This document shows, in pieces, positions 10,702 through 30,504 of a stretch of DNA of 64,000 nt. The notes under the pieces are model-generated. The model searched no databases. It was not told the DNA's origin and was given only the letters and a program-made list of their open reading frames with translations. Source of the DNA: Planctomycetota bacterium (GTDB taxonomy: Bacteria; Planctomycetota; Phycisphaerae; Phycisphaerales; UBA5793); contig CAUJHZ010000058.1 in NCBI GenBank assembly GCA_963205185.1, forward strand, positions 1 to 64,000, given 5' to 3'. The position numbers and the translations under genes are program-made. The first letter of the stretch is position 1. Every line of letters begins with the position of its first letter.

Positions 10702-10971
10702 AGGGAATGATGCGGCGCGCGGAGAGCGCCGTCATGGGTTACCTATGCCGTGCGTATCGAAGATGCACGATCTGCGCACTCACTCGCCGCCGGGCCTGGT
10801 ACTTGCAGCGCATCGCAAGTCGTGACCCCTCAAGACACCGCCGTGGGCAGCATCGGCGCCGCATCGGTCATCAGGTCCGATCTTACGTGCAGCCGCATCG
10901 CATCCTGGGATTCCGGGCGCCGAGATGCCAGGTAGCATAACATGATCCCGTTCAACCAAAGGAGGACCAGA
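10702..10971. other. intergenic region between prophage end and host-like genes
   Basis: No convincing gene lies in these 270 bases. The left edge is where similarity to the second copy (21526-21831) ends, so a prophage attachment junction is likely here. The right edge holds an AT-richer stretch with TAGCATAACAT and then AAAGGAGG, probably the promoter and ribosome site of the next gene. Confidence 0.4.
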
Positions 10972-11547
10972 ATGGATTGGCTGCTTTCCATCGTTCGGAT
11001 AGCCGGCGTGTCGTCTCCATTGACCGCTTGGCTCGTTCAGTTGCAGGCGGAAATTGACCGCGCCGGCTCGAAGGCTCTCGCAGAGCGTGTAAGGAAGATC
11101 GAAGACCCGATCAGCGCGATTCATCCGGACGTGCCGCAAGTGGCGAGGGCCATCTATGCGGCCATGACGGATGAGGATGGAGCGCACGTCTGGTTCGATG
11201 CGGACTTCTACGACAAGTTCAGCAAATGCCTTGCGGTTCTTGAAGCAAGGCATCTGATCAAGGGAGAACACACCATCGGGCACCGGTACTACAACGGATT
11301 GCGAGTGATCAACCCGTCTTTCATCATGTACATGTGTGCGCTGTGCGAAAGCGACGAACACATGAGCGAGCTGATCACTCGCATCGAAACTTGCGAAAGA
11401 GGGCGATGGCTGCACGGGCCGGACATCAAGCTCGACTTGGGGCTGCCCATGCCAGTGATTCGGGCCTGCTTTGAAGTCTACGAATCAAATGGCTACGGAC
11501 TTTGCTCGCAAGAGATCGGTCCGCCGAAGTACGTGGGAAAGGCCTAG
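10972..11547 (+). CDS. hypothetical protein, possibly wing-helix containing
   Basis: This 191-residue soluble protein starts at ATG 10972 behind a strong AAAGGAGG; an upstream in-frame ATG at 10942 has none. The centre (VARAIYAAMTDEDG to the RYYNGLRVINP stretch) looks like a small alpha/beta or winged-helix fold, and the C-terminal third carries several Cys residues. I recognise no family. It converges on the GHKL ATPase gene across a perfect hairpin and lies just outside a prophage end, a typical place for accessory or defence genes. Confidence 0.7.
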   Translation: MDWLLSIVRIAGVSSPLTAWLVQLQAEIDRAGSKALAERVRKIEDPISAIHPDVPQVARAIYAAMTDEDGAHVWFDADFYDKFSKCLAVLEARHLIKGEHTIGHRYYNGLRVINPSFIMYMCALCESDEHMSELITRIETCERGRWLHGPDIKLDLGLPMPVIRACFEVYESNGYGLCSQEIGPPKYVGKA

Positions 11548-11736
11548 CGGGGGCCAAAATCACTTTGACGGCTGCTCACTGAGCGTGCGACCGACCGGCG
11601 AGCGCGGCCTCCCAGTGGCGACCCATGGAGTGCTCTGCGCGTGATCTCATGCTCGCTGTGGTTGGTCCACCCGACGCACAAGGACTGAATGTGATTCAGG
11701 TCGAGCAGACGTTTGCTCGCTCTTCGATTGAAGCGA

Positions 11737-11769
11737 CAAGCGGCGCTGACTTTACGTCAGCGCCGCTTG
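11737..11769. terminator. perfect 14-bp hairpin between convergent genes
   Basis: CAAGCGGCGCTGAC is followed by the loop TTTAC and the exact reverse complement of the stem. It sits between two genes that end facing each other, so it can act as a two-way terminator. No long T-tract follows on either strand, so it is not a textbook intrinsic terminator. Confidence 0.6.
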
Positions 11770-11790
11770 GCTGGCCGCTGCCAAAATGGA

Positions 11791-13404: not shown

Positions 13405-13786
13405 GGCGAATCTCCTGACCTGTTGGCCCGACGTGAAGTCGGACCGGTGATGGAAGACAGGCGCGAGCACGCCGCTCGCGTCCGAAAGGCGCAACACTCC
13501 ATGTCAATGGAGTCAACGCGAATCAACCCATGCACGCGGCATCTACAGCGTGCGCGGGGAACTAAGTTTCATGCGAGGGGGTTCTTACCGAAGGGTTCGC
13601 ACTCTTCGATTTGGCTCCGACGTCTAGCCGGCGCTCGACAGGACACCTTCGCAACTTGGGGAGTGTAACACCTACAGAAGGGCCCGTCAACAGGACACTC
13701 CGAGAGCGATGGGGCGAAAGCTGCGGCAAGGGCGCCCATGCCAACTTCGTCAGCGCCTTGCAGAGCCACGGCCCAAGGGCTCCGAA

Positions 13787-13852
13787 CACTGTTGCGCCCG
13801 CTCACCGAGCGCAACAGTGGGGGTTGCGCTCCCTACTGGGGAGACAACCCCC
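13787..13852. repeat. two back-to-back hairpins
   Basis: CACTGTTGCGC at 13787-13797 pairs perfectly with GCGCAACAGTG at 13809-13819. Immediately after, GGGGGTTG at 13819-13826 pairs with CAACCCCC at 13845-13852, with an inner TCCC/GGGA pairing. The GTTGCGC word occurs on both hairpins. Such a compact double stem in non-coding DNA suggests a structured transcript or a terminator pair. Confidence 0.6.
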
Positions 13853-14062
13853 TCATAACCCCGTACCCTGCGAAACGGAGACTCGGAGAGACTTTTGGCC
13901 CAAACCGGCGCTTTTGGCTACCCCGGTTGCGCCCATCGGTTATGACCTCGGCGCGAGCAGAGACACGACCCGACATCAGCCCTATCCGCAAGTCCTTGCA
14001 GAACAGTGGCCTGCAAACGCAAACGCCGCCGGGGTCTCTCGACGGCGCGTTCGTTAAACCAC

Positions 14063-14090
14063 AGGGCCGGCTGCGTTTGCAACCGGCCCT
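14063..14090. terminator. hairpin AGGGCCGG/CCGGCCCT
   Basis: An 8-bp stem encloses CTGCGTTTGCAA, inside which TGC and GCA can also pair. It lies about 270 bases beyond the stop of the minus-strand membrane protein gene, so a link to that operon is uncertain. Confidence 0.4.
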
Positions 14091-14356
14091 TCAATAGAGG
14101 TGGCGCGACGGTGTTCGCATCAGTGCGACAGCGAAAGAGAGACACGCGAGGGGAGCGGCGGTTTCAACAGTTGCAAATGGTCGGTCGGCGCCGGCGTAAT
14201 GGGCGCCTTCCCGGACGGTCAGTCGGCGACGATGCCGCCCGCATCGAGGCAGCGGGATGCGCTCCCAATGCGTCGCTGATGCCAGCCTACAAATCAACCC
14301 ACGCTACTTGCTGCAAACAATTGGGCATCAGTCAAATCAACTGCACCCCGCTGCTC

Positions 14357-15022
14357 TCACCTGCCGCATTCGGGGCAAATCCCGCCAGTCCCACAAAGGT
14401 GGTAGCCGCAGTGCTTGCAGGTGTCGTGCGGCGTGCGCGTCAGCATGGCTCGAATCCAGATGTTCAGCATTGCGAGTACCAGCATGTATGGAAACACAAA
14501 CGACATGCAGGTAAACGCAGCACGAGACCAGCTCCAATTCGGGTTCAGGACATCAAACATCGGAATGCGATCGAGCGTCGCGGATATCGAAGTCGATATG
14601 TCAGTATTCAGAAGGGCTCGATACAAAACGGAACTCGTAACGAACAGCAAAAGGGCAGACGCGCCGACGACAGCGAGTCGGCACCAGTATCGAACGTCTC
14701 GCATCAGATCAGTTTTGCCCGTGACGAGACCGCGCAACAGTTGAAAAGCAGGCACTGCTACGCCTGCCGGAAGTACAAAGAGTGTAAGATGTACCATCAA
14801 CATTGATAGGCCGACAAAAGCTGGAGATAGCGCGAGAGGCTCTGGCCGGAGCTTGGATATCAACCAATTGTAGTGGCTCAAGGCATTCGATAACAGCGTA
14901 CTCGAAGATGATAGCAAAGTGAGCAAATACGCGAACAACAATCCAAGTGACGTCAATGCGCTGGCAGCGCAGGTTCCATGCGCAGCTAACGACTTCACAA
15001 ACTCATAGCTGCGCGAAGTCAT
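14357..15022 (-). CDS. multi-pass membrane protein with C-terminal zinc ribbon
   Basis: This 221-residue protein has four likely transmembrane helices (about 18-40, 63-95, 115-133, 167-189) and ends in CKHCGYHLCG...CPECGR at 202-221. This is the CxxCGYxLxG...CPECG ribbon seen on many planctomycete proteins. Its ATG overlaps the stop of the giant RHS gene by four bases (ATGA), so it is translated only after that gene. A small membrane protein coupled to an RHS gene sits where an immunity protein is expected, but it resembles no known immunity family. Membrane topology is inferred from hydrophobicity only. Confidence 0.8.
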   Translation of the reverse strand: MTSRSYEFVKSLAAHGTCAASALTSLGLLFAYLLTLLSSSSTLLSNALSHYNWLISKLRPEPLALSPAFVGLSMLMVHLTLFVLPAGVAVPAFQLLRGLVTGKTDLMRDVRYWCRLAVVGASALLLFVTSSVLYRALLNTDISTSISATLDRIPMFDVLNPNWSWSRAAFTCMSFVFPYMLVLAMLNIWIRAMLTRTPHDTCKHCGYHLCGTGGICPECGR

Positions 15023-18000
15023 GGTACGGGCATCGATGTACAGGCTGGATTATTCGGATTCGGGTTCATCGGAGGAGGCGGATTTTGCGGAATACTTGCA
15101 CATCCGCCGTGATTCCAATCTTGGTTCAGACAGCAGGAGAGCCGCTTCTGCTCATTCGGGGTTAGTCCACATTGGGCCTGGCACCACCGTTCGACACCGA
15201 CTACCCGCGGCGCCCCGTTTGTTTCGGCGCACCGAATGCACCCGCGAATGCAATTCAGTCCAGGGCTGTTACCGGCACACTGACAGACGCATTGACTCTC
15301 CCAGCAAAGCAGTCCGCCTTGGATACACACTTGTCGATTCGGGTAGTAGCACGGCTCACCAGGAAGCGGAGGGCTCTGGGGAGGAGGAGGCTGGGGTGGC
15401 CCATAGAGCGTGGCACAGTGAGATCCAGGTTTGCACTTTACCTTCCAGTTTCCTGGAATGCATACGAATTGATCAGTGCAACCGATTATGCAAGCGCGAT
15501 GCGTACGAGTGCCTGGCACGAACGCGGAACAGCACCCGATGCACTCCGAGCGATTGCGCGCTTGCCTGCAATCGCGCGGTCTCAAGGGTCGCTTGGGGAT
15601 GAATGGCACTCCGGGGACGGGCGGAGGAATCACGAATGGCGAATGCTGATCTGGAGGTCCGGCAAAAGTGCAAGTGCCGTGATTGCAGTTCTCCCAAGCC
15701 ATACCCATCCAATCAATCCCAATTAGTGGAAGAGACGCCACATACTCATACAGCCCCATCCCATCCACATACCCCAGCGGATCCCGTCGCGTCCAGACGC
15801 CCAGGTCGCTGCGATAAACGCGGTGGCGGATGTGGTAGGTGTCGCCAAGTTCGGCGTCGTACTCGTAACCTGCGTAACCCTTGCGGTTGGCGATCGAGGT
15901 GAACGTGCCGATGGGCGAGCCGTACGGATCGTAGTTGACGCGCTCACTGATCGAGCCGGAGGTGTTGATCAGAGCGACAACGTCGTGGTGCTGGTTCTGG
16001 AGGTAGTAGCGGCGTTCATTGAGCGTGCCGTTGGCGTCGGTGTCCCGATCGCGCAGGACGACATCGTCGATGTACGAAGACCCACCCATTCCCGAAGCCC
16101 CAGCATTCTGATACCAGAACTGCTCCGTCGGCTCCGAAGCGTCGGAGTCATCCTCGTACATGGCCACAATCCGCCAGCGCTCGTCGTAGGCGAAGTGATA
16201 CCACGGCGCCGTCTCGTCGTAGCGGGCGCTGAGACGGAATCCGAGCGCGTTGTAGACGAACTCGGCTTTGACGTTGTTCGACTGGTCCTTGACCTTGACG
16301 AGCCGATACCACGCATCGTACTCATACTGCCAGTCGCGCTTGTCGTCGGTCAGGTTGCCCGAGGCGTCGTACGTCGGCGCGACGTTATTCGTCTGATTGT
16401 CCCAGCCGGTGATCTCGTTGACCTTGTTGTGCGTGAAGTCCCAGTCGAACTCGGTGGTGGAGCCGCCGGTGACGAGGTCGGTGTGAGTCCAGTTGCCGAC
16501 CTGATCGAGGTCGAAGATCTGCTTGCGCGTCTCGCTGGTGATGCTGCCGCCGGACAGCGTGCCCGCCTGAGCCTGGGTGAGGCGCTCGAGCATGTCGTTG
16601 GTGTACTTCCAGTCGAATCCGGTCTGCACCGAATCGTCGGCGGTGAGCAGGTTCGAGTTGCGGTTGTAGGCCAGCGCGACCTTGTAGAGGTCGGTCGTGC
16701 TCTGCTTCCAGCGCGACTCGATGATGCGGTTGAACCGGTCCATCGCGTCGTAGACGTCGCTGCTGTTGAACAGTAGGGAAGTGACGACCGGGCTGGGCTG
16801 GTTGTAGACAGTGCCCACCAGCGAGCCGACGCCGAGGTAGGCGTAGCGGACGCGATTGGTCGCCCCGCCGCCCGAGCCTTCGGCGATCCGCGTCACCCGG
16901 CTGGCGTCGTCATCGTGCAGGCCGTCGGTGGATTCGTAGAGATAGGACAGGACACCGGCGTTGGGGAGAGTCATCTGTGTGCGGCGCAGTGTCCGGCGTG
17001 CGCCGGTCGGCTCCTTCTTCTCCCAGGCGTACGCGATGGCGTACTCGTCGCTGCTCGTGCCCGTCGAGATCGCGCCGCTTCGGTTCTGGGTGAATGAGGC
17101 GAGGTTGCCCCAGTCGTCGTAGGCGTACTGCACCTGGTTCTGGACCGTGCCGCTGCCGACGGTCGCATTGTCGTAGGACGAGACGAGATTCGCGCGGCCG
17201 TGGTTGTCATAGGTCGTCGAGAGGCGCAGGATGGCGGTGTCGAAGCCGCCCGAGGTGGTGACGCGCTCGTGAGTCCTTCGGCCCGAATCATCGAAGTCAT
17301 ACTCCATGACCCGGCCGACCTGATCCTTGGTCCAGATCATTTCCGCCTGTGCGTTGTAGGCGAAGGTCACGACATCAGCCGCGGTGAGCGAGTCGGGATA
17401 CTGCACCTTCTGGAGCAGGTGCCCGGTGGCGATCTTTGAATCGCCGGCGCTGGTCCCCTTGGTCGTGCCGTAGGTGTAGGTGGTCGTCTGGTCATTGCCG
17501 CTGCCCGTCATCCGCTGCGTGATAGAGGTCTGGAGGCCGTTGGTGTAGACGTACTCGACAGTCTGGTTGATGTCCGTGCCGAAGGGTTCGCCGCTGTTGG
17601 TGTTCGGGTCGTAGTTGCGGATTGTCCTGGTCTGGCGGTTGGCGTCGTCGTACTCGAACTTGCTCACGCGGCCCATGGGGTCTTCGATCGTTTCGGCGCG
17701 GCTCATGAGGTCGTAAGTGGTCGTGGTGCGCAGGGCCGTGTCCGAGCGGGCGGGAATGCTGAGATTGGTGCGGTCGAAGGTGCTGCCGCCGTTGGTGCCG
17801 TACATCACGGTGTCGGTGAGGCGGTGGAGGTCGTCGTACCAAAGGGCCGTGATCTGCGCCCGGCCCTTGACATCCGAGGCGGTGATCTTCATCGGATCGC
17901 CGTCGGCGTTGGTGTCCAGCGGACCCGTCGTCTGGCCCGTGCCGGCGTCCTCGTGCTTGCGCTGGATGAGCACCTGCATCAGGACCTCATCGCCATCCGG

Positions 18001-21000
18001 GTCGAAGACGGTCTGGTTCTCTTCGAGCACGATGTCGCCGGTGACGGTCTGGGCGTCGGCGTAACTCGAGTCGTCCGTGCTGGCCAAGGTGAATACGTGC
18101 GTCACCCGGTCGAGCCGGTCGTGATAGGTCTTGGTGAGTTCTTCGCGCTGACTCTTCATGATCCGTCCGACCTTGTCGTACCACGTCAGGGACGCGAGCG
18201 AATCGTCATCAGCGCCGGTGGACTGGTTGATCTTGTGCCGCGTCGCCTTCCAGGTGCGGCCGAGTTCATCGAAGAAGGACTGCGCCAGGCTCAGGCGATC
18301 AGTTGACCGCGTGACGGGATTGTCCGAGGCGCTGACATTGCCGTCCTTGTACTGGCCCGAGGCGACGAGCCGGCCGAGGTTGTCGTACTTGTTAAGGATG
18401 AACTTGGGTTCGGTGGGATTGGTCTGGAGCAGCACCCGGCCGCGCACGTCGTGTTCGAAGGTGGTCTCTCGGCTGCCCGTCGAGTTGTCCCGGATGTAGG
18501 AGGTCTGGCTGGTGATGTAGGAGTTGCCGCCGTCGCTGCCGCCGTCGTACTCGGTCTCTGAGACGACGACCATGTTGTTGGTGCCCGAGGTGTCGCCGCC
18601 GGGATCGCCGTTGTCGTTGGTGCCGATCTCCTGGCTCACGGTCCGGCCCAGGGTGTCGAACTCGTTGCGGGTGATCGTGCCTGCCGGAGTCTTCGTGCGG
18701 ATCAGGCGTCCCATCGCATCGTGGGCAAAGGTCGTCACGTCGTAGTTCGTGCCCTGCGAGCCTTCGCCAGTCGAGCCGCTCACGGGAATCGGCGGGCGGA
18801 GGTGGTACTGCCACTGAGCCGTGGCCCGCACACCCGTCGCGTTGAAGATCGTCTTGGTGAGGATGTGGCAGTTGCCCAGGTTCGCCACGGCGTCGATCAC
18901 GTCGCTCTCAGTCGTGTCCACCTGGCTGTTGAGCGCGGTTGTCGATTCGTTGTCCGTCAGTTCGATCACGCACTGGTAGACCTGCCGACCGGCGTGATTG
19001 GTGATCACGTACTGAACGGGGCCGTAGAACACATCCGGGTCCGATGATTCATCGTAGTCGCCGTATGCGAGTGTCACCGCGAGGCGACTGGCGAGCATCG
19101 AGTGATTGGACTTCTTGACCAGTCCGCCCGCCGCGGTGGCGTTCATCACATCCAGCCGGCCCTGGCGGTCGTAGGTGTAGGTCGTCTTGCGGTGCAGCGG
19201 CGAACCGGTGCTCGAGAATCCCGTCGGAATCGTGATTCCGCTGAAATCACCGCTGGTGGTGTCGGCGTCGATGATCCGCTTGACCAGCTGCCCGCCGGCG
19301 AACTCGCTGTAGTCGATGCGGTCCTCGGCGTTCTTCTCGAACTGGAGCGTGCCGTCCTCGAGGAAGAACTGTTTCGACGTATTCGCCGTTCCCGAGCCGT
19401 TCTTGCCCGTGGTGACGGCGGGCAAGGTCGTCGTCACCTCCTTGGGCATGAGCACCGCATCGCCCGTATAGAAGGTATGGGTGAAGGTCGTGACGTGGGA
19501 ATTGGTTGTGCCCGACGTGATCTCATCCTCATAGATGCGCCGGCTGGTCACCAGAGGCCGCACCACCGTCGAATCGCCGATCGTCTTGCTCGTGGTCGTG
19601 TAGGTCAGCGTGAGATCGAGATAGGCGTCACCACTCGTGCCCGTCTTGTGCTTCACATCGGTGATGAAGCCAGTCAGGTCGCCCGACGACTGGCGCACAA
19701 TGGTGGTGATGAGGCCGACCGACGAACTCAGCGTAAACGCGCCCGTCGAATGGGTGTAGGCCGTGACGTTGGCGGGCGTGTGGATGTCGGTGATGCCGCC
19801 CCGATCGTCGCGGAGAACCTCCGTCGCCCAGGTCAGTTGTCCGCTCGTCTGCGTGGGGTCGAGTTTGGTGCGGACCTGCGCCAGCGGCTGGCCGACTTCA
19901 TCAAAGTACTGCGTCAGGAAGGTCGTGTCGGGCAACTCAACGACGGTGCGATAGAGCCAGTTGGCGTCGTAGCCGCTGGTGCCCTGATGGTTCGTGTTGG
20001 TCGAATAGGTGAACTCGTAGGTTCCCTCGCCGGTGGCGATGCCCGAGCAGGCGCGCTGGCCGTTGAAGGTCGCCAGCGAGATCTGCCGGCTCGAATACTC
20101 GAGGTACGCCTCGGCGTAATCCAGCAGTGCACTCTGGCTCGCAGTCAGGAAGTCATCATCGAACTGGCCATCCTGCGTCCAGTCGAAGTTCCGCGTCCCC
20201 TCGAATCCGACGACGAGTTTGACCTGATAGGACGTGCCATTGGCGTCGCCGGACTTGTGGTAGCGGTAGTACTTCTTGCGGATCATCGACTTCGAGGTGT
20301 CCGTCAATGGCGTCGTGATCGTCACGAGTTGAAGGTTGCCCGCTTCGCCGTAGGTCGTGTCCGCCGAGGTGTAGTAGGCGTAGTCGACGCGGTTGACCTC
20401 GACCCAACCGCTCTCATCGATCTCGACTTTGACCTGTGTCAGGCGATCGACGCTGTCCAGCGTCGTGTAGGCGTAGGTGTATCGTCGGCCCGCGGTGTCG
20501 AAGGCAAGCTTGATGCCGCCATTGGTGTGGAAGCCGCTGCTGATCGCGGTGCTCGGGTCCGTCTCGTGCCCGACATACGCCGTGTTCCCATCCGCGTCGA
20601 TGATCTTCCAGATCTGCCCCTTGGCCACGCCCGCGTTGGCGTCGAAGCCGAAGAAGTGCACGCGCGTGCCGTGCTGGTCGGTGTAGACGTACATCTCCGG
20701 ATCGCTGCCCTGCGCCGCCGACCAGTCGAAGACGCCCGCGACGCCGTTCTTCGACTTGAACTGACTGCTGCTGGTGCCCTCGCGCTTGAACTCGATGTAC
20801 CGGTCGGCGCCGTAGATCAGATACAACACATCGTTGGCGGCGTCGGAGGGATCACCGTAAAGGAGGATCTCCGGCTGGCTGGTCTGGAACCAGTTCCGAC
20901 CTTGGTAGCCGTCGCTGTCGTGGTGGCTGCCATCCACATCCTGCCGGGCGTTGTAGGTCCGCCCGACCATCCACGAGAACCCCGGTGCGGGCATCGCGAT

Positions 21001-21264
21001 GTCGATGTCAAAGGGTGAGTAGGCGCCGGCGTCGAGGCGCACATCGCCGCAGATGCGGTCGTTGCGGTTCCAGTTGCCGCTTCCCTCGCCTTCAAGCGGA
21101 TTGCCCGCGAGAGCGATCGCGATCCCCGGCGCTTCGCGCAATGAGCCATCGAGATTCACGCTGCGCTGGATCGCGCGGGGCGCGACATCCTGCACGAGAC
21201 TCGCGGCCGCGGGCAGGTAGGTCGTGAGCGAAGCGGCGTAGATTTCGAGAATCTGGCTGCTCAT
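15019..21264 (-). CDS. giant RHS/YD-repeat protein with cysteine-rich C-terminal tail
   Basis: This 2,081-residue protein has many YD repeats (YDxxGR... YxYDxxGN) from about residue 600 on. It shows the RHS core end signature: RKGYAGYEYDAELGDTYH, then WTRRDPLGYVDGMGLYEY. RHS cores form a shell around a C-terminal toxin and cleave it off. Here the variable tail after the core, codons 15022-15699, is 226 residues with 26 Cys and Pro-rich linkers, unlike known RHS nucleases. No signal peptide is evident at ATG 21264 (GGAG six bases upstream). The membrane protein gene follows with an ATGA overlap. The gene stands directly beside a prophage tail relic, which may hint at phage-associated origin or delivery. 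A polymorphic toxin or surface protein are both possible. Confidence 0.9.
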   Translation of the reverse strand: MSSQILEIYAASLTTYLPAAASLVQDVAPRAIQRSVNLDGSLREAPGIAIALAGNPLEGEGSGNWNRNDRICGDVRLDAGAYSPFDIDIAMPAPGFSWMVGRTYNARQDVDGSHHDSDGYQGRNWFQTSQPEILLYGDPSDAANDVLYLIYGADRYIEFKREGTSSSQFKSKNGVAGVFDWSAAQGSDPEMYVYTDQHGTRVHFFGFDANAGVAKGQIWKIIDADGNTAYVGHETDPSTAISSGFHTNGGIKLAFDTAGRRYTYAYTTLDSVDRLTQVKVEIDESGWVEVNRVDYAYYTSADTTYGEAGNLQLVTITTPLTDTSKSMIRKKYYRYHKSGDANGTSYQVKLVVGFEGTRNFDWTQDGQFDDDFLTASQSALLDYAEAYLEYSSRQISLATFNGQRACSGIATGEGTYEFTYSTNTNHQGTSGYDANWLYRTVVELPDTTFLTQYFDEVGQPLAQVRTKLDPTQTSGQLTWATEVLRDDRGGITDIHTPANVTAYTHSTGAFTLSSSVGLITTIVRQSSGDLTGFITDVKHKTGTSGDAYLDLTLTYTTTSKTIGDSTVVRPLVTSRRIYEDEITSGTTNSHVTTFTHTFYTGDAVLMPKEVTTTLPAVTTGKNGSGTANTSKQFFLEDGTLQFEKNAEDRIDYSEFAGGQLVKRIIDADTTSGDFSGITIPTGFSSTGSPLHRKTTYTYDRQGRLDVMNATAAGGLVKKSNHSMLASRLAVTLAYGDYDESSDPDVFYGPVQYVITNHAGRQVYQCVIELTDNESTTALNSQVDTTESDVIDAVANLGNCHILTKTIFNATGVRATAQWQYHLRPPIPVSGSTGEGSQGTNYDVTTFAHDAMGRLIRTKTPAGTITRNEFDTLGRTVSQEIGTNDNGDPGGDTSGTNNMVVVSETEYDGGSDGGNSYITSQTSYIRDNSTGSRETTFEHDVRGRVLLQTNPTEPKFILNKYDNLGRLVASGQYKDGNVSASDNPVTRSTDRLSLAQSFFDELGRTWKATRHKINQSTGADDDSLASLTWYDKVGRIMKSQREELTKTYHDRLDRVTHVFTLASTDDSSYADAQTVTGDIVLEENQTVFDPDGDEVLMQVLIQRKHEDAGTGQTTGPLDTNADGDPMKITASDVKGRAQITALWYDDLHRLTDTVMYGTNGGSTFDRTNLSIPARSDTALRTTTTYDLMSRAETIEDPMGRVSKFEYDDANRQTRTIRNYDPNTNSGEPFGTDINQTVEYVYTNGLQTSITQRMTGSGNDQTTTYTYGTTKGTSAGDSKIATGHLLQKVQYPDSLTAADVVTFAYNAQAEMIWTKDQVGRVMEYDFDDSGRRTHERVTTSGGFDTAILRLSTTYDNHGRANLVSSYDNATVGSGTVQNQVQYAYDDWGNLASFTQNRSGAISTGTSSDEYAIAYAWEKKEPTGARRTLRRTQMTLPNAGVLSYLYESTDGLHDDDASRVTRIAEGSGGGATNRVRYAYLGVGSLVGTVYNQPSPVVTSLLFNSSDVYDAMDRFNRIIESRWKQSTTDLYKVALAYNRNSNLLTADDSVQTGFDWKYTNDMLERLTQAQAGTLSGGSITSETRKQIFDLDQVGNWTHTDLVTGGSTTEFDWDFTHNKVNEITGWDNQTNNVAPTYDASGNLTDDKRDWQYEYDAWYRLVKVKDQSNNVKAEFVYNALGFRLSARYDETAPWYHFAYDERWRIVAMYEDDSDASEPTEQFWYQNAGASGMGGSSYIDDVVLRDRDTDANGTLNERRYYLQNQHHDVVALINTSGSISERVNYDPYGSPIGTFTSIANRKGYAGYEYDAELGDTYHIRHRVYRSDLGVWTRRDPLGYVDGMGLYEYVASLPLIGIDWMGMAWENCNHGTCTFAGPPDQHSPFVIPPPVPGVPFIPKRPLRPRDCRQARNRSECIGCCSAFVPGTRTHRACIIGCTDQFVCIPGNWKVKCKPGSHCATLYGPPQPPPPQSPPLPGEPCYYPNRQVCIQGGLLCWESQCVCQCAGNSPGLNCIRGCIRCAETNGAPRVVGVERWCQAQCGLTPNEQKRLSCCLNQDWNHGGCASIPQNPPPPMNPNPNNPACTSMPVP

Positions 21265-21304
21265 CGATGGCTCCGCGCCCCCGGCCAAGATCGACCGTCA
21301 CAGT

Positions 21305-21529
21305 CTACCCCCGAACTGGACGGCTGGCCTGCGGACGACCGTCCGGTTCTGAGGAAAATCTCGCTCGGTGTGGAAGACCGCCGTAGAAGGAAGGAACCTC
21401 GGCTTCGAGCGCGGCGAGCGCCTCGAGATCATCACTCGTGCCGCGCACCCAGTAGAGGCGCTCGGTGGAAGGGCTCCGGCCGCTGCTGGTCGTTCGACTG
21501 ATCCCGCGTTCCTGAACTTCCGTGCTCAT
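21305..21529 (-). pseudogene. truncated copy of the tail gene at 53326-54132
   Basis: The first 53 codons match the start of the 268-residue tail protein at 53326-54132 almost residue for residue (SPSTERLYWVRGTSDDLEAL). The remaining 21 codons are unrelated and end in a stop. DNA similarity ends near 21380, where the upstream flank of the RHS gene begins. It still overlaps the tape-measure-derived frame by ATGA, as in the intact prophage. Confidence 0.85.
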
Positions 21530-21831
21530 CCGAAGGCCAATCCCTTGTTCGATGCCTCGACGAGGCGCTTGGTATGGCGGGCGGTCTGCTCAGTGGCGCG
21601 TGCGGTGCGCTCGGCGCTGTCATCGCCGGCGGCGAGGCGCGAATGCTCGCCGAGTTCCAGTGCAATGTCGCCGGAATCTCCGGATTCCGCTGGCGGCAAA
21701 GATGCTCGCGCCCGGGCGGCCCGGAGGCAGCGTACGAGGCCGCATGCGAGGATGCACGCAACCTCCGTGCGACGCTCGGCGGCGGACACGGTGCTGGGAT
21801 CGGTGATGGCGGGCACGGCGGGCTCCGGCAC
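21526..21831 (-). pseudogene. chimera of the recombinase-linked small gene and the tape measure 3' end
   Basis: From a GTG at 21831, about 65 codons match the small protein at 10477-10701 (PEPAVPAI, ILACG). The frame then passes without interruption into the last 35 or so codons of the tape measure protein at 54129-56468 (GDDSAERTARATEQTARHTK...GLAFG). The switch lies at GAGGC, 21634-21638, a word present in both parents. The frame is open but can hardly be functional. It marks the deletion of an entire prophage interior. Confidence 0.85.
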
Positions 21832-21977
21832 TTCCGCTGTGACTGAACAGACTGGTCGATGGTGGTCACCGAGAGCCCTGTTGCGGTGCTCAAGACCGCT
21901 GGAAGATTCCGTTCGAGCCCGACCATCGCTTGGAGGCTCGTTGATCCGTTCGCCATGTTTCTTACCCCCCTGGGGGA

Positions 21978-22250
21978 TCACTGATCGTGGCGAAAGTAGA
22001 GCCATCCCTGCCATAGGGCCCATGCAGTGAGAAAGACGCAGATGGTGAAGGAAATGGGGCTGAGATGCAGGTGCCGATAGATGCGGTACTCGCGAATGAT
22101 CCAGAGCGCCCAGGCGCCATCGACGATGATCGCCGCGCCCGCGATCGAAAGCACCTTCCAGCCAGGCGGCGCGGGATCTGCTGGTCGCCGAAGTGGTTTC
22201 TGACGCGGCGAGTGCTTGCGTCGTCGTCGTGTCTTTCTGCGATGCGACAT
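21978..22250 (-). CDS. small two-helix membrane protein
   Basis: This 90-residue protein has a very basic N-terminus (MSHRRKTRRRRK) and two hydrophobic helices at about 32-52 and 66-84. ATG 22250 has only a weak ribosome site. It lies 61 bases downstream of the RND pump gene on the same strand and may be the last gene of that operon. No family recognised. Confidence 0.6.
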   Translation of the reverse strand: MSHRRKTRRRRKHSPRQKPLRRPADPAPPGWKVLSIAGAAIIVDGAWALWIIREYRIYRHLHLSPISFTICVFLTAWALWQGWLYFRHDQ

Positions 22251-22311
22251 CGTGGCGCGGCTCGTGCAATCCTCGAAGTCCGTGGGGCGAGCCCATCTGC
22301 TGGCCAAGCAC

Positions 22312-25300
22312 TCAGTTTGTCCCGCTCGGCGGCTCGGGGGGTCGATGCGGTCTGTTCGATTCGCTCGGCGCGTCCGGCGATGGCGGAGAAGGGCCTTTCG
22401 CGGCTGAAGGCGGCTCGACAACTTGGGCATTCACTTCAAGCGGCCCTGCATGCGGACCTTCCCACGGTTGCGAGACGGGCAACGGACGACCGGTCGGATC
22501 CCAACCGGTGAAGATGCGGTAGAGTGCAGGGAGGACAAGCAGCGTGAGCAGCGTGCTGGACGTCAGGCCGCCGATCACGACTGTGGCCAGGGGCTTTTGC
22601 ACCTCCGCGCCTGTGCCAGTCGCGAGAGCCATTGGGACGAATCCGAGCGAGGCGACCAGCGCGGTCATCAGCACGGGGCGCAGGCGCGTCAGACATCCTC
22701 GGACGATTGCCGCGTCACGCGCGAGTCCTTCAGCGCGGAGTTGGTTAATGAACGTGACCATAACCAGTCCATTGAGCACGGCCACGCCGGAGAGGGCGAT
22801 GAAACCGACTGCCGCTGAGATCGAGAATGGCATTCCCCGGAACCAGAGCGCCACGATGCCCCCCGTGAGGCCTAGGGGGACGGCGCTGAAGACCAGCAGG
22901 GCATACTTGACGCTCTTGAAGGTCGAGAAGAGCAGGAGGAAGATCAGGAAGAAGCAGATCGGCACGACGATGGTCAGCCGCTGCTTGGCCGCGACGAGAT
23001 TTTCATACTGGCCGCCCCAGTCGAGCCAGCCGCCTGGAGGAAGCGGCACGTTCGCAACCTGTGCCTGTGCCTCCTTGACGAACGAGCCGAGGTCGCGGCC
23101 GCGCACATTGCACTGCACGACGATACGGCGCTTTCCGTTCTCGCGACTGATCTGGTTGATCCCCTCGGCCACGTCGATGGCGGCGACATGGCCCAAGGGG
23201 ATGAAACCCGTCTCCTCATGTTCGGCGCCATTCAACCCGCCCGTGGCGCTTGCGAGTTGGATTGTTTGCGCCGGCTCCGGCCCACGGGGGAGAGGGATGG
23301 GCAGGCGGTCGAGCACATCAATGCGACCGCGGAGCGCATCGGGCAGGCGCACGACCAGATCGAACCTCCGATCACCTTCGAACACAAGGCCGGCCTCGGC
23401 CCCGCCCATCGCCACGGCGACGACGGCATGCACATCGGCGACACTCAAGCCGTAGCGGGCGATGGCCGACCGGTCGATGTCCACGGTCATGACGGGCAGG
23501 CCCTCGGTCTGCTCGACCTTGGCGTCGGCGGCTCCCGGGATGGCCTCAAGCACTTCGAGTATCGCCTGGGCGGTCTCCTGCATCTTGTCGAAGTCGTCGC
23601 CGTAGACCTTGACGGCGATGTCGCCGCGCACGCCCGAGATGAGTTCGTTGAACCGCATCTGAATCGGTTGCGTAAACTCATAACTCTGGCCCGGGAGTCG
23701 TGAGACTTCAGCCTGAATAAGCTCAAGGAGCGCCCCCTTGTGCCCACTCAGGTTCGGCCCCTCATCTCGGGCGGCCCCTTCATCGCCTGCTTCCTGTGGA
23801 CCCGCCAGCCCCATGTTCTCGTTTTCGCTCCTCGTTTGCGCAGCGAGCCGCCGCAGATCTGACTCACTGCGCCACTCCCATTCCGGTCTGAACATCACGA
23901 AAGTGTCACTGATGTTTGGCGGCATCGGGTCCGCGGCCAGCTCGGCTGTTCCGGTCTTAGAGAAGACAAAAGCGACCTCCGGGAATCGCGCCAGCGTCTG
24001 CTCGAGTTGGAATTGCATGTCCTGCGACATCGACAGAGAGGTACTCGGCATTCGAAGGGCCTGAAGCGCCAAATCCTTTTCGTCGAGCGTGGGTACAAAC
24101 TCCTGCCCGAGTCGAGTGAAGAGGACGGCTGAAGCGGTGAACGCCACCACCGCAGTCGCGACGACAAGCCAGCGAAGGCGCATCGCCCACGCCAGGACCG
24201 GTTGGTAGAGCGCCTTGGCCCAGCGAATGAGGAACATCTCCTTCTCCTGCACTCGCCCCCGGATCAGGATGGCCACCATCGCCGGCACGAAGGTGAGAGA
24301 GAGGATGAAGGCGCTCGCCAGGGCGAAGATGACCGTCAGGGCCATCGGCCGGAACATCTTGCCTTCGACGCCGGTGAGAGCGAGGATCGGAATGTACACA
24401 GTGATGATGATCGCCTGGCCGTACACCGACGGCTGGATCATCTCTTTGGCGGCCACCATGACCTCGTGCAGCCGTTCTTGAAGGGTGAGCAACCGTCCTT
24501 CATGATGCTGCCGTTCGGCCAGGCGACGAAGGCAGTTTTCCACAATGATGACCGCACCATCGACGATGAGGCCGAAGTCGATCGCGCCCAGCGACATCAG
24601 GTTGCCGCTCACCTCGTTCTGAACCATGCCGGTGGCCGCCATGAGCATCGACAGCGGGATGGCGAGCGCGCAGATGATCGCGGCGCGGAAATTGCCCAAG
24701 AGCAGGAGCAGCACGACGATGACAAGAATGGCGCCCTCGATCAGGTTCTTCTGAACTGTGTGGATCGTCGCATCGACAAGCTTGGTCCGGTTGAGCACGG
24801 GCTGCACAACGATGCCCGGCGGAAGACTGCGGCTGACCTCGGCCATCTTGGCGTCAACGGCGGCGGCCACCGTGCGGCTGTTGGCGCCGATGAGCATGAT
24901 CGCCGTCCCGACGACGACCTCTTCGCCGTTCTCGCTGGCGGACCCCGTCCGCAGTTCCCTGCCGATCGCGACGCCCCCGGGGACGGCAATGTCGCGGATG
25001 TAGATCGGCACGCCATTGCGCGTCCCGACCACTATCGATTCCAGTTGCTCGACGGTCTCGATTCGACCGGTGGCGCGCACGAGGTAAGACTCGCCCTTGT
25101 GTTCGACGTACCCGGCGCCGGTTGAGACGTTGTTCCTTTCGATCGCTTCGATGACCTCGGCGAAACTCAATCCATAGGACACGAGCCTCATCGGATCAGG
25201 CTGTACGTGGTACTGCTTGACGTAACCGCCGATAGCGTCGACGCCCGCGACGTCCTTCACGCTCTTGAGCTGGGGCCGGATGATCCAATCCTGCACCTCG

Positions 25301-25863
25301 CGGAGATAGGAGGACCGCTCCAGGTCGTTGGCGAGGCGGCGGTTCTCCGGCGTCAGGTAGGAACCGTCACTCTGCCAGCCGGGCTGACCGTCTGACACCG
25401 GGGCGCCCTGCCCGTGCGGATGTTCGTAGGCGACGGTCCACATGTAAACCTCGCCCAAACCGGTGGCAATCGGCCCCATTACCGGCTCGACGCCCTCAGG
25501 CAGCGACTCCTTGGCTTCGCCAAGTCGTTCGGTCACCTGCTGGCGCGCGAAGTAGATGTTGAGGTCGTCATCGAACACCGCCGTGACCTGGGAAAACCCG
25601 TTGCGCGACAGCGAGCGGGTTGACTGCAATCCTGGAATCCCGGCCAGGGCGTTCTCAATGGGGAACGTCACCTGCTTCTCCACCTCGATAGGAGAGAGTG
25701 ACGGCGCCATCGCGTTGATCTGGACCTGGTTGTTGGTGATGTCCGGAACGGCGTCGATCGGAAGCCGCTTGAGCGAGAACACGCCGACGGCCGCGACGAG
25801 AGCCGTAAGGAGCAGGATGAGCCAGCGGTTCTTGATGGAGAAGTGCAGGACCGATTCGAGCAT
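22312..25863 (-). CDS. czcA: CzcA-type heavy-metal RND efflux pump
   Basis: This 1,183-residue inner-membrane proton antiporter is the engine of a tripartite efflux complex. The start (MLESVLHFSIKNRW...LPIDAVPDITNNQVQ) and the two six-helix bundles match HME-RND proteins. Helix 4 carries D429, D435 and E442 (DFGLIVDGAVIIVEN), the D-x5-D-x6-E pattern of pumps for Zn, Co, Cd or Ni; copper/silver CusA has a different helix. It is about 120 residues longer than usual. The extra length comes from an insert near 680-720 (NENMGLAGPQEAGDEG...) and a Pro/Ser-rich C-terminal tail. It lies 62 bases after the adaptor gene on the minus strand. Metal specificity is inferred from this motif. Confidence 0.95.
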   Translation of the reverse strand: MLESVLHFSIKNRWLILLLTALVAAVGVFSLKRLPIDAVPDITNNQVQINAMAPSLSPIEVEKQVTFPIENALAGIPGLQSTRSLSRNGFSQVTAVFDDDLNIYFARQQVTERLGEAKESLPEGVEPVMGPIATGLGEVYMWTVAYEHPHGQGAPVSDGQPGWQSDGSYLTPENRRLANDLERSSYLREVQDWIIRPQLKSVKDVAGVDAIGGYVKQYHVQPDPMRLVSYGLSFAEVIEAIERNNVSTGAGYVEHKGESYLVRATGRIETVEQLESIVVGTRNGVPIYIRDIAVPGGVAIGRELRTGSASENGEEVVVGTAIMLIGANSRTVAAAVDAKMAEVSRSLPPGIVVQPVLNRTKLVDATIHTVQKNLIEGAILVIVVLLLLLGNFRAAIICALAIPLSMLMAATGMVQNEVSGNLMSLGAIDFGLIVDGAVIIVENCLRRLAERQHHEGRLLTLQERLHEVMVAAKEMIQPSVYGQAIIITVYIPILALTGVEGKMFRPMALTVIFALASAFILSLTFVPAMVAILIRGRVQEKEMFLIRWAKALYQPVLAWAMRLRWLVVATAVVAFTASAVLFTRLGQEFVPTLDEKDLALQALRMPSTSLSMSQDMQFQLEQTLARFPEVAFVFSKTGTAELAADPMPPNISDTFVMFRPEWEWRSESDLRRLAAQTRSENENMGLAGPQEAGDEGAARDEGPNLSGHKGALLELIQAEVSRLPGQSYEFTQPIQMRFNELISGVRGDIAVKVYGDDFDKMQETAQAILEVLEAIPGAADAKVEQTEGLPVMTVDIDRSAIARYGLSVADVHAVVAVAMGGAEAGLVFEGDRRFDLVVRLPDALRGRIDVLDRLPIPLPRGPEPAQTIQLASATGGLNGAEHEETGFIPLGHVAAIDVAEGINQISRENGKRRIVVQCNVRGRDLGSFVKEAQAQVANVPLPPGGWLDWGGQYENLVAAKQRLTIVVPICFFLIFLLLFSTFKSVKYALLVFSAVPLGLTGGIVALWFRGMPFSISAAVGFIALSGVAVLNGLVMVTFINQLRAEGLARDAAIVRGCLTRLRPVLMTALVASLGFVPMALATGTGAEVQKPLATVVIGGLTSSTLLTLLVLPALYRIFTGWDPTGRPLPVSQPWEGPHAGPLEVNAQVVEPPSAAKGPSPPSPDAPSESNRPHRPPEPPSGTN

Positions 25864-25925
25864 GACAGGGACTCCGATAGGGGCCGGCCGCGGCGGCGAA
25901 GGTGGACCAGTGATGAGGGCAGGAA

Positions 25926-27335
25926 TCAGTGCTCGTGAGCAGCGCTGCCCTTGCCCAACTCGGCTTTGAGGATGAAACTTCCGGCGACAACGAACTCCTC
26001 GCCCTCCTGAAGTCCAGAGTGGATCGGCACAAGCCCGCCGATGGTCGTGCCGATGCTCACGGCGCGCTTTGCGAAGGTGTTCGGCTCACCGGCGACGGGG
26101 ACGAACACTGCGGGACCACCTTCAACGGTCTGAATCGCTTCATCGGGAACTGCGATCACCGCCGCAGGCATGGTGCCGCCGGGATCGGACGCGACGATCT
26201 CGACCTGCGCAAACATGCCCGGCCTGAGTGCAATCTCGGATGCCGGCACTTCGACCCGAACCTGGGCGGTGCGCGTCGTCGGATCGACGAACGGAGATAC
26301 GAACGCCACCTGTCCCTGATAGTTCAGACTGCCGACGGTTCCGACGGTCACCCATGCCGTCGCTCCGACCTGTACTTCATGCACGCGCGCTTCCGGTACA
26401 TCTGCCAGCACCCAGAGAACCTCGGTGTTCGCGATGACGAGCAGTTTTTCCCGATCGGGTCCGACCAGTTCGCCCAGCGTGACCTCGCGTTCGACGACCT
26501 GGCCCGCCAGGGGGGCATGGATGGTGAATCGGGGATCAACTTCACCGCTCTGAATGAGCATTTCCACTTCCGCCTGCTTCATCCCAAGGATGTGAAGGAG
26601 ATTCTCTGCGGCGGTCGCCGCCGCCTGCGCGGACTGCTGTGCGGCGAGGGCGGCCTTGTACTCACCCTCGCGCGTCTGCACTTCGGCCAGCGCAATTCCC
26701 TCGGACTTCTCGTAGAGTCCTCGCGCCCGGTCCCACGCCGATTTCGCGAGCTCGACCGTCGGAATGATGGTCTGCGTCGCCGTTCGTTTGATGAGAAAGT
26801 CACTCTGCGCCTCGCCGAGTTCCGGGCTTTCGACGACGACGAGATCGTCACCCACGTCCACCATGCTGCCAAGCCGGACCTTTATCTCCACGGCGCGGCC
26901 TGAGAGAGGTGAGCCAACATGCGCCATCGCTTCGATGTTGAATCCGACCCGCGCCGGAGCGACCAGTGTGTGCTGGAGGATTCTGGCTTGGGCGCGCTCC
27001 ACCTTGATGCCGTACCGCTCGATCGCGTCGGGCGCGAGCGTGACCTCATCCACGTGAGCCTCTGACTCGCCTTCAGAATGGGCGTGGCCGTCGTCTTCCT
27101 CGTGCTCGCCAGCCGGTGTGGCTCCATGCGGCTCATCATGATCGTGCCCGTCTCCCTCCTGGTGGGCGCCAGTCATCTTGACGGCACTCGTCTCTCCGTG
27201 GTCGTGGCCATCCTCCTCCGAGTGCTGATCCCGATCGCATCCGGTGATGGCGACTGTCGCGATGACGAGCATCGCCACGACGATTTGTGGGTTGACCCGC
27301 AGATGCGGGAGGCTGATTAATCTCAAGGTGCTCAT
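25926..27335 (-). CDS. czcB: CzcB-type periplasmic adaptor lipoprotein
   Basis: This 469-residue membrane fusion protein links the RND pump to the outer-membrane channel. A lipobox ending in ITGC near residue 33 makes it a lipoprotein. Residues 35-95 are a His/Asp/Glu-rich segment (repeated GHDH and HEEDDGHAH) likely to bind metal, as in CzcB and related adaptors. The barrel-sandwich, an alpha-helical hairpin around 205-250 and beta-barrel domains follow. Gene order channel-adaptor-pump with short gaps indicates one operon. Confidence 0.93.
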   Translation of the reverse strand: MSTLRLISLPHLRVNPQIVVAMLVIATVAITGCDRDQHSEEDGHDHGETSAVKMTGAHQEGDGHDHDEPHGATPAGEHEEDDGHAHSEGESEAHVDEVTLAPDAIERYGIKVERAQARILQHTLVAPARVGFNIEAMAHVGSPLSGRAVEIKVRLGSMVDVGDDLVVVESPELGEAQSDFLIKRTATQTIIPTVELAKSAWDRARGLYEKSEGIALAEVQTREGEYKAALAAQQSAQAAATAAENLLHILGMKQAEVEMLIQSGEVDPRFTIHAPLAGQVVEREVTLGELVGPDREKLLVIANTEVLWVLADVPEARVHEVQVGATAWVTVGTVGSLNYQGQVAFVSPFVDPTTRTAQVRVEVPASEIALRPGMFAQVEIVASDPGGTMPAAVIAVPDEAIQTVEGGPAVFVPVAGEPNTFAKRAVSIGTTIGGLVPIHSGLQEGEEFVVAGSFILKAELGKGSAAHEH

Positions 27336-27376
27336 GGTGATGCTCTCCAGGGCAGTGATCTGCCCGAGTGTTTCCG

Positions 27377-28801
27377 TTACATCCGCGCTGCCGCGGTGGA
27401 TTGGTGCGTGGCGGGCTCGCCGCCCTCGTTTCCAAGACCTGTTGCCCCAACGACGCCGGCGCCGCCGACGGCACGCTGCAAGCGGATCTGTGCGAGCGCG
27501 GTTTCCCGTTCGATGTCGATCGCCCTGGCCTGCGTTGCCCGGAGATCCTGCTCGGCAAGGAACAGGGGCGTCACATCAGTCTGGCCGGCGCGGTAGGCGT
27601 CCTCCGCCTGCTGCCGTCGCTGCTGCTGGAGCGGGATCAACTCCCGGCGGACCCGCTCAAGGTTGGCGGTGTTCGCTTCGAGCGCTTCGTAGGCTCGACG
27701 AACCTCTTCGACGACCTGCCGCTTGGCACGGGTGAGATTGTGGCGCACCTCGATCTGCTCGGCGCTGAGGCGCGCGCGCCGGGCCTGGCCCATGTCGAAC
27801 ATCGGAAGCGGCAAGGCGAGCGCCGGCCCCGCTGACCACTCGCCGTCACGCTCAGCCTCGACTCCCGCTTCCGCGCCCTCCCACGGAAGCAGTCGCAGCA
27901 GCGCCTTCTCATCTCCCAAAGCGGCGAGTTGCCAGCCAATGGCCTGCACCTCAGGTCGATGGAGCAGGGCCACCTCGACCCATCGCGACTCAACATCAGA
28001 CCGTGGCAGCGGCGTAACCCAGGAATCCAGCGCCCACGCCGCCGCCCCCGATGGCTCGCCGATGAGTCGCGCCAGCCTCAGGCGTTCCTGACGCTGTCGA
28101 AGGCGGGCATCGGCGATCTCCACCTCCAGTTCCACGCGCTGCGCCTCGAGTGTGGTCAGGTCGCCTCGAATGCCCTCTCCGGCTTCCAGTCGATCGCGCG
28201 CCACGCTGACCAACTTCTGAAGCAGGTCGAGTCGCGTTTCCAGGATCGGAAGGAGCCGATCGGTCGCCTGCGCGGCCACGTATGCTTCCTGCACCTCCGA
28301 CGCCACGTCCAGAGCGACCGTCACCGCATCGGCCGCCGATTGCCGCAGACGATTGTCCGCGGCGCTGGATCGGCGCGGAATCTGCAGCGCGGCGATGAAG
28401 TCCTGCGCGAGCGAGGCCTCGATGACCGGTGACCCGGCACCCCACTTCAGTGCGATGTTGAGGACCGGGTTGGGCAGGAGTCGCGCCTGATCGGCGTCGG
28501 CCAGCGCGATGCGCACCCTCGCCAGCGCCGCCTGAAGACCCGGATCGGTCGTGACGGCCCGCTCCACGGCTTGGCCGAGCGTGAGAGTGTCGGCCGACAC
28601 CGGCTCGTCGAGTGGACCGCCTTCGACCTTGAACTGGATGACAACTTCCACTCCGGTCGCCTCCACCACGGCCTGTTCTGTTGCGGGGTCAGGCGGGGCG
28701 ATCGTCTGGCACCCGATCAGACATGGAAGTATCAGAGCGGGGACGGCAGCGCGGAGTGTCTTGCAGCGCCACCGGCGCGGAGTATGCAGATGAACGAACA
28801 T
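27377..28801 (-). CDS. czcC: CzcC-type outer-membrane efflux lipoprotein (TolC family)
   Basis: This 474-residue outer-membrane factor has a signal peptide with lipobox LIGC. It carries two repeats of the outer-membrane efflux fold, each with long heptad helices and a conserved P-N-P-x-L-x turn (LLPNPVLNI). ATG 28801 has GAGGAACACC upstream; the longer frame adds an Arg-rich leader with no sense. It lies 41 bases before the adaptor gene, and is the first structural member of the operon. Confidence 0.92.
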   Translation of the reverse strand: MFVHLHTPRRWRCKTLRAAVPALILPCLIGCQTIAPPDPATEQAVVEATGVEVVIQFKVEGGPLDEPVSADTLTLGQAVERAVTTDPGLQAALARVRIALADADQARLLPNPVLNIALKWGAGSPVIEASLAQDFIAALQIPRRSSAADNRLRQSAADAVTVALDVASEVQEAYVAAQATDRLLPILETRLDLLQKLVSVARDRLEAGEGIRGDLTTLEAQRVELEVEIADARLRQRQERLRLARLIGEPSGAAAWALDSWVTPLPRSDVESRWVEVALLHRPEVQAIGWQLAALGDEKALLRLLPWEGAEAGVEAERDGEWSAGPALALPLPMFDMGQARRARLSAEQIEVRHNLTRAKRQVVEEVRRAYEALEANTANLERVRRELIPLQQQRRQQAEDAYRAGQTDVTPLFLAEQDLRATQARAIDIERETALAQIRLQRAVGGAGVVGATGLGNEGGEPATHQSTAAARM

Positions 28802-28935
28802 GGTGTTCCTCGTAAGCGCATCGAGAGGGACGGGACGGAACCGGCGACGCATCGGCGTGCGCGCAGTCCACGAACCAACGCCACAACGGCTCAACGGCAG
28901 TCGCCGTCAAGCGTGGGCGAGGAATACCTCTAGCG

Positions 28936-29364
28936 CTAAACGAGGAGGATGACAGATCGGAGGCGGACGATGGAATCGGGCGGATGTGCTGACGAGAATC
29001 TCAGTCTCGTGTGCGGCCGAGTCCTGAGCTGATCGGTGTCGATCGCAACCGTGGCCGCGAGAAGTGAAGGGACGATCGCGGGCAAAACGTCCACTCGTGG
29101 GGCGATCTGAGCCCCGGAGCCTTCAACACTGAGCGGGGTGTCCTCGCAGGGGTGCGGCCCGCACGGATCGCCTTCATTCGTCGGGTCGCCGATGACGGCG
29201 GCGGAGCGGCACTCGCCGACACCGGTCTTCGTGCAGCCCAACTCCACGCGTGTGCCGCCGTGAACATCCGAACAGAGCACGAGACCCGAGCGCAGAGCCG
29301 CACTCCCGAATCCGAATGCCAGCAGACAAATCCAAACCAGAATGGGGACGAGGGATCGTCGCAT
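28936..29364 (-). CDS. small secreted Cys-rich protein at the head of the czc operon
   Basis: This 142-residue protein has an N-terminal signal or anchor helix (residues 6-25), followed by [15 protein letters not shown] and further Cys residues (C59-PHPC type pairs). Small secreted proteins with this LC...GH...VE...C pattern are often found upstream of metal RND operons; the role is unknown, perhaps metal sensing or buffering. It lies 134 bases before the channel gene and is divergent from the pseudopilin gene. The ribosome site is weak. Confidence 0.7.
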
Positions 29365-29622
29365 CGCGAGGGTCCGATTGTAGACGGGGCATTGGCGTGT
29401 GTCCGGGCGGCGAACTGGATGAGTACCTCCGCAAAGCGGGTCGTCGCCGGCCTCCGCTCATCCGGCCGCCCAGGCATCCGTCATGAAGCCGACGTGGGCA
29501 GGCATCGGAGGCGCTTCCCATCGTCGGCGGGAATACCGCGCCCATCGCGGCGGTTATGCTCGCACCTGCGACTTCATGTGGGGTGGCCAGCCTCATCTGC
29601 CGCACAACGGTGGGAAACCGCC

Positions 29623-30504
29623 ATGAACCACGGTTCCGATGATCGAATCCCGGCTCGTGGATGCGACTTCGATGGCGCTGAGCCGTGTGGTCGCGGCGCG
29701 TTCACACTCATCGAACTCCTCGTGGTCATCTCCGTGATCGCTCTGCTCATCGCTTTGCTGCTGCCGGCACTGGCGCGAGCGCGTCATGCGGCGCGGCAGG
29801 CGGGCTGCCTGAGCAACCTCAGCCAGATCATGGTCGCAACCGCGATGTACCTCGACGAGCACAATGATCTCATGCCCATCCTCGTCCCGCGCGGCCATGC
29901 CCTGCTCGACAACTACAGTCACGGCGGGCGCTACACGACCAGGCCCGAGAGCGCGTGGGATCACCTGTACCTGCCATACGAGCGCCCGCTCAACAGGTAT
30001 GTTCATGCCGATCAACCGCGAGGCGACAGGACCACGCCGCGACCGGACTTCCTCGATCCGCAACAGTTCAACTTCCCGGTCTTTCAGTGCCCGGATGACC
30101 TGGCCTACAACTTCACTGAAGACTTCAGCGAGCCGGAGCCGACGCACGGCACGAGCGCGTACTTTCTCGTCGGGACGTCGTACGCCTTCAATGGAACGTG
30201 GTATCCTTGGCACGCGTTCTTCTACAACGACGTGGCGGAGCCGATGAACTGGCCTGCGGGCGTTCGAGCCTACACCCGCGCGCGATTGCAGATCGCCTCG
30301 CAGTTCGTGGCCTATCTCGATGAACCGGGGAACTTCCACGCCGTATTCCGGATAGCACCCAATCAGACCCATCACGGCGCGCTTGGCGCTTACTCAATGG
30401 CGTTCCTGGATGGGCATGCCGGTGTCACTCGCTACGAGGGCAACCCGTTCGACCCGGCTCGCTACGTGCTGTTCCCTGAGCAGAAAAAGCGCGATGAGAA
30501 CTGA
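29623..30504 (+). CDS. DUF1559-like pseudopilin (prepilin-type N-terminal domain)
   Basis: This 293-residue protein has [26 protein letters not shown] at about 27-52, the type IV prepilin cleavage site with the Glu at +5. It also has the A-R-x-x-A-R-x-x-x-C helix and a C-terminal F-L-D-G-H-A motif. Planctomycetes encode dozens of such proteins; they are exported through a type II/IV pilus-like machine, and single members lack a known function. It is the first plus-strand gene of the metal region but is probably not functionally linked. Confidence 0.9.

Follow-up and report, generated by a model that had tools for sequence, protein, structure and literature searches.

How did a stretch of about 0.5 kb in the chromosome of a planctomycete come to join pieces of phage genes that lie tens of kilobases apart in an intact prophage on the same contig? 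The window analysed here is a stretch of 64,000 nucleotides (C58:1-64000) from a genome assembly of 4.55 Mb in 76 contigs. Judged from sequence comparison, the stretch is, with moderate probability, the leftover of a third prophage, built from two phage fragments.

Composition of the relic

The phage-derived DNA of the relic begins at 21372-21376 and not at 21305, where the earlier note had placed its start; positions 21305-21371 are the upstream flank of an Rhs gene and were also found in contig C41. A search against the own genome matched 21372-21638 to 53975-54241 (91% over 267 bp, E 1e-102), and an ungapped alignment matched 21634-21831 to 10504-10701 (84.8% over 198 bp). BLAST of 20400-22900 against the window paired 21372-21654 with 53975-54255 (89%) and 21634-21831 with 10504-10701 (85%). 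The two-part match and the gene order of the earlier note, tail gene, tape measure and small gene from left to right, were thereby confirmed. All pieces lie on the minus strand. They comprise the first 52 of the 268 codons of the tail gene (21374-21529, as at 53977-54132; 96% amino acid identity over 53 residues), the last approximately 36 codons of the tape measure including the stop (21526-21638, as at 54129-54241) and the first 66 of the 74 codons of the recombinase-linked small gene (21634-21831, as at 10504-10701 and C58 107041-107238). The start of the tail gene overlaps the stop of the tape measure (ATGA, 21526-21529), an arrangement identical to that at 54129-54132. About 460 bp of phage core are left and the genes for lytic growth are gone.

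The pieces are homologous to phage genes, namely the tail and tape-measure genes (PhageMin_Tail and PHROG tape-measure families) and the small gene. Complete copies for comparison, likewise on the minus strand, are the small gene of prophage 1 (10477-10701) and the tail and tape-measure genes of prophage 2 (53326-56468; PhageMin_Tail 6e-50, PHROG tape-measure families). The closest named relatives of the tail gene stem from metagenome assemblies of Phycisphaerales and other planctomycetes, and a search of a deposited phage collection with the tail protein gave no match.

The small gene is joined in frame to the tape-measure C-terminus, which creates an open chimeric reading frame of 101 codons (21526-21831, minus strand). 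Its translation from 21831 to 21526 consists of 66 small-gene codons with a GTG start, followed by LAAGDDSAERTARATEQTARHTKRLVEASNKGLAFG and the stop codon, the C-terminus of the tape measure. An open frame that uses the small gene's own start codon might be a gene that occurs naturally in phages, or a fusion protein that has newly come under selection. However, both halves occur together in no viral contig or congener. When viral contigs were searched with the chimeric protein, 13 matched, all limited to residues 66-101 or a part of them (the tape-measure portion), and the exact joint sequence was found in none. Among 61 genomes (four congeners and wider relatives), the two halves were present only as separate matches, this window excepted. 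The fusion is unique to this locus among the viral contigs and relatives examined. A natural single fused gene, which the earlier note had named as the finding that would overturn its reading, was rejected, as no viral contig or relative spans both halves, and a functional fusion of either kind is barely conceivable.

Other prophages of the same family

Prophage 2 of C58 is a complete copy. Its tail-end genes start at about 46.4 kb; they are followed by the tail gene (53.3-54.1 kb), the tape measure (54.1-56.5 kb), the genes for a head-tail joining protein, for the capsid (60.6-62.6 kb), the portal (62.6-64.0 kb) and the terminase (about 67-69 kb), and by primase/helicase-type genes and an AAA_24 protein up to 87.4 kb. 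Wherever a retrieved tail locus reaches far enough, the tail gene has p351 and mostly also p318 on its left. To the right of the phage genes of prophage 2 follows a 19.6-kb island between two exact copies of GGGTTACCTATGCCG (87673 and 107274; C58 87673-107288), which contains a type I restriction system, a sigma-54/RtcR-like gene, a large serine recombinase, a DUF2924 gene and the small gene. A third near-copy of the repeat is located at C58 109182. The tail gene and the small gene (107.0-107.2 kb) are approximately 53 kb apart in the order seen in the relic, and the recombinase/defence island ends on its right with the small gene, which sits near the right-hand end of the composite.

Prophage 1 (window 1-10.75 kb) carries the same island in reduced form, its left repeat (GGGGTTA) being fused to the recombinase at codon ~396. 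This serine recombinase (8483-10039, junction at about 8855) is chimeric: codons 1 to ~396 are normal and the remainder comes from DNA to the left of the broken repeat. In prophage 2 and in the relative G003:C3, the two fused parts are separated by 16-18 kb.

Intact copies run 50 bp beyond the small-gene start to the 15-base end repeat. The relic has neither these 50 bp nor the repeat, and after 21831 it passes directly into chromosome. The only exact copy of GGGTTACCTATGCCG in the window is located at 10736; the end repeat of the small gene was rejected as the attachment site of the relic, from which it is absent.

A further repeat of ~320 bp with near-inverted ends (GAACACYGTTGCGCCC...) is present in at least eight copies, which lie 1.3-5 kb rightwards of the small gene. 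One of them is the left neighbour of the insert described below (13784-14103); others lie at C58 111080-111400 and C41 15947-16273 and in the relatives G001, G003 and G004. The copy of prophage 2 abuts a tRNA-Met gene, and the repeat is possibly a phage end or a mobile repeat. The cargo between it and the small gene varies among copies. In the window (10780-13497) it includes an ATPase with weak similarity to MzaB (PADLOC), while that of C41 includes Hsp70 and TerB genes.

Junctions of the relic

Owing to many intact copies and two relatives free of the insert, the joints can be resolved at the level of single bases. Junction 2 lies at GAGGC (21634-21638), a 5-bp microhomology. Base-level alignment placed the switch between the parents inside this word. 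In tail/tape-measure copies from five genomes and eight small-gene copies, the pattern is almost uniform: left parents read CGAGGC/C (the slash marks the breakpoint), right parents TGAGGC/G and the relic CGAGGC-G. The tape-measure copies of the own and related genomes mostly show CGAGGC/C, and a few left parents have a substitution in the word. TGAGGC/G is present in seven of the eight small-gene copies, the eighth (C41) being truncated at that very place. Random breakpoint pairs in prophage 2 shared at least 5 bases in 0.8% of trials, and in 1.0% when they were limited to the tape-measure/tail genes and the small gene. The in-frame fusion at a word found in both parents, as the earlier note had described it, agrees with the alignment and with the parental copies, and its deletion-type character is supported by the matching order of the two regions in prophage 2.

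Junction 1 (21374-21380) leads from the upstream flank of the Rhs gene into the interior of the tail gene and was located by comparing C41, the tail copies and the relic. The Rhs flank in C41 reads GGAATACCG, tail copies read, for example, GGCAGACCG, and the relic reads GGAAGACCG, which amounts to an interrupted 7-of-9 match between the single Rhs relative and the tail copies. At junction 3 (21827-21831), GGCAC is common to the small-gene start (CCGGCAC/AGG) and the chromosome as seen in G003 (ATGGCAC/TTCC), with CCGGCAC/TTCC in the relic.

One in-frame joint at GAGGC accounts for the fusion of the tape measure with the small gene, and the earlier note had concluded that a complete prophage was reduced to exactly its left and right extremes by a single deletion of the interior. 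On the left, however, the relic lacks p351, p318 and the remainder of the tail gene, and with them the extreme itself; on the right, 50 bp and the end repeat are absent. Junctions 1 and 3 are needed in addition. Having no left extreme and no right repeat, the relic must contain at least three joints. The exact form of the single-deletion reading is thus refuted, and even in a looser form it is very unlikely. The relic is cut by at least three junctions, two of them with 5-bp microhomology.

An assembly of 76 contigs with many copies of the family, some of them at contig ends, might also join two prophage copies by error. Against such a chimera, which we consider highly improbable, an assembler would need more than a 5-bp overlap to make the join, and the frame is open across the joint. 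Moreover, all other copies in the genome diverge from the pieces by 8-17% and hence did not supply them.

Contig C41 contains a second small-gene stub (L010, 21003-21196), which is truncated at codon 65 and fused to other DNA. Its breakpoint is at most 3 bp from that of the relic (10507 versus 10504).

The insert, its site and the Rhs gene

The relic belongs to an insert of 7.65 kb (14181-21828) that also comprises a candidate immunity gene and an Rhs gene, the left arm. This insert is absent from two congeners (G003:C3 and G004:C76), in which window 21827-30500 is present at 91-92% identity and is preceded by window 13767-14180 (G003) or 13875-14181 (G004). The chromosomal site reads CAAATGG...CACTTCCGCT. 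At the insertion point, GTTGCAAATGG/CACTTCC in G003 corresponds to GTTGCAAATGG/TCGGTC...CTCCGG/CACTTCC in the window; both chromosomal flanks of the insert are intact (AAATGG/CAC in G003) and no base was lost. No tRNA or Rfam gene that could have served as integration site was found near 14104-21831, in contrast to prophage 2, which abuts a tRNA-Met gene. Neither a strain with the full third prophage nor the actual parent prophage was found among the relatives examined.

The Rhs gene (15019-21288, minus strand) encodes a 2089-aa Rhs-repeat protein (PF05593 RHS_repeat, 2e-6) with polymorphic-toxin architecture. With its Rhs repeats, variable C-tip and adjacent small ORF, it is a predicted polymorphic toxin. 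The 221-aa ORF behind the tip (14357-15022, minus strand), an immunity candidate by position only, matched no Pfam family and was not found in the C41 locus. The C41 copy of the Rhs protein is 91-95% identical up to residue ~1863-1911 and has a different tip thereafter. The genes at window 15019-21288 and C41 8909-15145 share over 90% identity across some 1900 residues; their C-tips are unrelated and their downstream ORFs differ, so that the pair appears to represent tip replacement inside one genome.

In contig C41, the Rhs gene is 8.6 kb from the tail gene, and order and strand match those of the insert. Further Rhs relatives lie near the tail gene in G003:C39, G001:C9, G002:C87 and G002:C75, where both orientations occur. 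The insert may accordingly be what a third prophage has left behind, its left arm and stubs. The locus also suggests that, in a prophage of this sort, the Rhs toxin cargo may outlast the phage genes.

Age of the collapse

Compared with six other copies, the 52 tail codons differ at 10-12 synonymous and 0-3 nonsynonymous positions (dS 0.31-0.41, dN/dS 0-0.08). The 36 tape-measure codons gave dS 0.20-0.51 and dN/dS 0.03-0.06. The small-gene piece was uninformative, as its dN/dS of 0.4-0.6 falls inside the range of intact copies (0.33-1.05). Since the change is almost only synonymous, the divergence must have accrued while the tail and tape-measure genes still worked, and the collapse itself is recent, with constraint lost lately. 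The low dN/dS at dS 0.2-0.5 likewise points to a functional parent of a distinct lineage that is otherwise unseen in the assembly; the nearest tail copy in the genome is 92% identical (dS at least 0.31), and a near-identical donor was not found there.

Proposed history of the locus

We favour, with some reservation, the decay in situ of a tandem third prophage by several breaks. A third prophage of the same family would have integrated in tandem beside prophage 1, between window 14180 and the base now at 21829, with an Rhs toxin gene in the left arm, followed by the tail and structural genes and, as in prophage 2, by a serine-recombinase/defence island that has the small gene at its end. Microhomology-assisted illegitimate end joining would have reduced it by three losses: (a) about 8-9 kb from the Rhs gene to the inside of the tail gene; (b) about 35-53 kb from the tape-measure C-terminus to the small gene, via GAGGC; and (c), via GGCAC, the right end between the start of the small gene and the chromosome. 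Microhomology-assisted end joining is the likely route, and the genome encodes a Ku domain (PF02735, 2e-47; G000:C70:96191). Directly observed are the homologies and joints, the lack of the insert in two relatives, the Rhs-tail colinearity of C41, the recent loss of constraint and the presence of Ku; one resident prophage as the source of all three pieces, the order of events and the repair pathway are inferred.

Rhs gene, tail/tape measure and small gene have the order and strand of intact copies (Rhs-tail in C41, tail-small gene in prophage 2), which random capture would yield in about 1/24 cases. Colinearity and the common strand therefore favour decay in situ. Decay of a similar kind is evident nearby in the prophage 1 recombinase, whose codon ~396 is joined to a broken end repeat, and in the small-gene stub of C41. 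On the other hand, joint (c) must end a few bases from the original integration point, which is a coincidence unless the word at the insertion site was itself the microhomology, and junction 1 shows little contiguous microhomology with the sole available Rhs relative.

The base-perfect insertion point in the chromosome instead favours capture at a break. A double-strand break or stalled fork at AAATGG/CACTT might have been repaired with three captured or copied phage pieces (the Rhs block, the tail/tape-measure piece and the small-gene piece), linked by microhomologies, so that a resident third prophage never existed there. That no chromosomal base was lost, that short matches occur at every joint in a genome with Ku, and that the source phage family is multi-copy all agree with such a patchwork. 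Yet the pieces share the order and orientation seen in real prophages and the assembly contains no donor near 100% identity, so that we regard this history as a serious but less probable alternative. An unlikely variant is that serial template switching on an incoming phage made the insert in a single repair event, with a return to the exact base at which the chromosome was left; in this variant, codons 64-66 of the small gene are also a recurrent breakage point, the C41 stub ending 3 bp away.

Comparison with known systems

The locus probably represents ordinary, recent prophage decay, well resolved, and adds no new kind of system; it would be a clean example of the loss of a multi-copy prophage in a little-studied phylum. 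Microhomology-mediated end joining and illegitimate recombination are known in bacteria. The 5-bp words shared at the relic's joints and the Ku gene fit this process, whereas the presence of three joints at one locus is different, and the pathway is here presumed. A literature search for prophage remnants formed by microhomology deletion returned no paper.

Rhs toxins are known in planctomycetes (PMC3482391). As in these polymorphic toxins, the protein described here, a putative toxin, is large, has Rhs repeats and a conserved core, differs in its C-tip between two near-identical copies and is followed by a small ORF. A serine recombinase with DUF2924 occurs in regions related to Wolbachia phage WO (PMC10299305). 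In both cases the recombinase is directly downstream of the DUF2924 gene in a phage setting; in our prophages the module forms the right end of an island that a 15-bp repeat delimits, and it includes an extra 74-aa gene. Finally, the reduction of prophages by deletion to cryptic ('grounded') remnants is well known (PMC6379469). There, as here, large deletions leave fragments of structural and recombinase-linked genes at the integration site, but the present relic is extremely reduced and its joints are resolvable owing to many intact sister copies.
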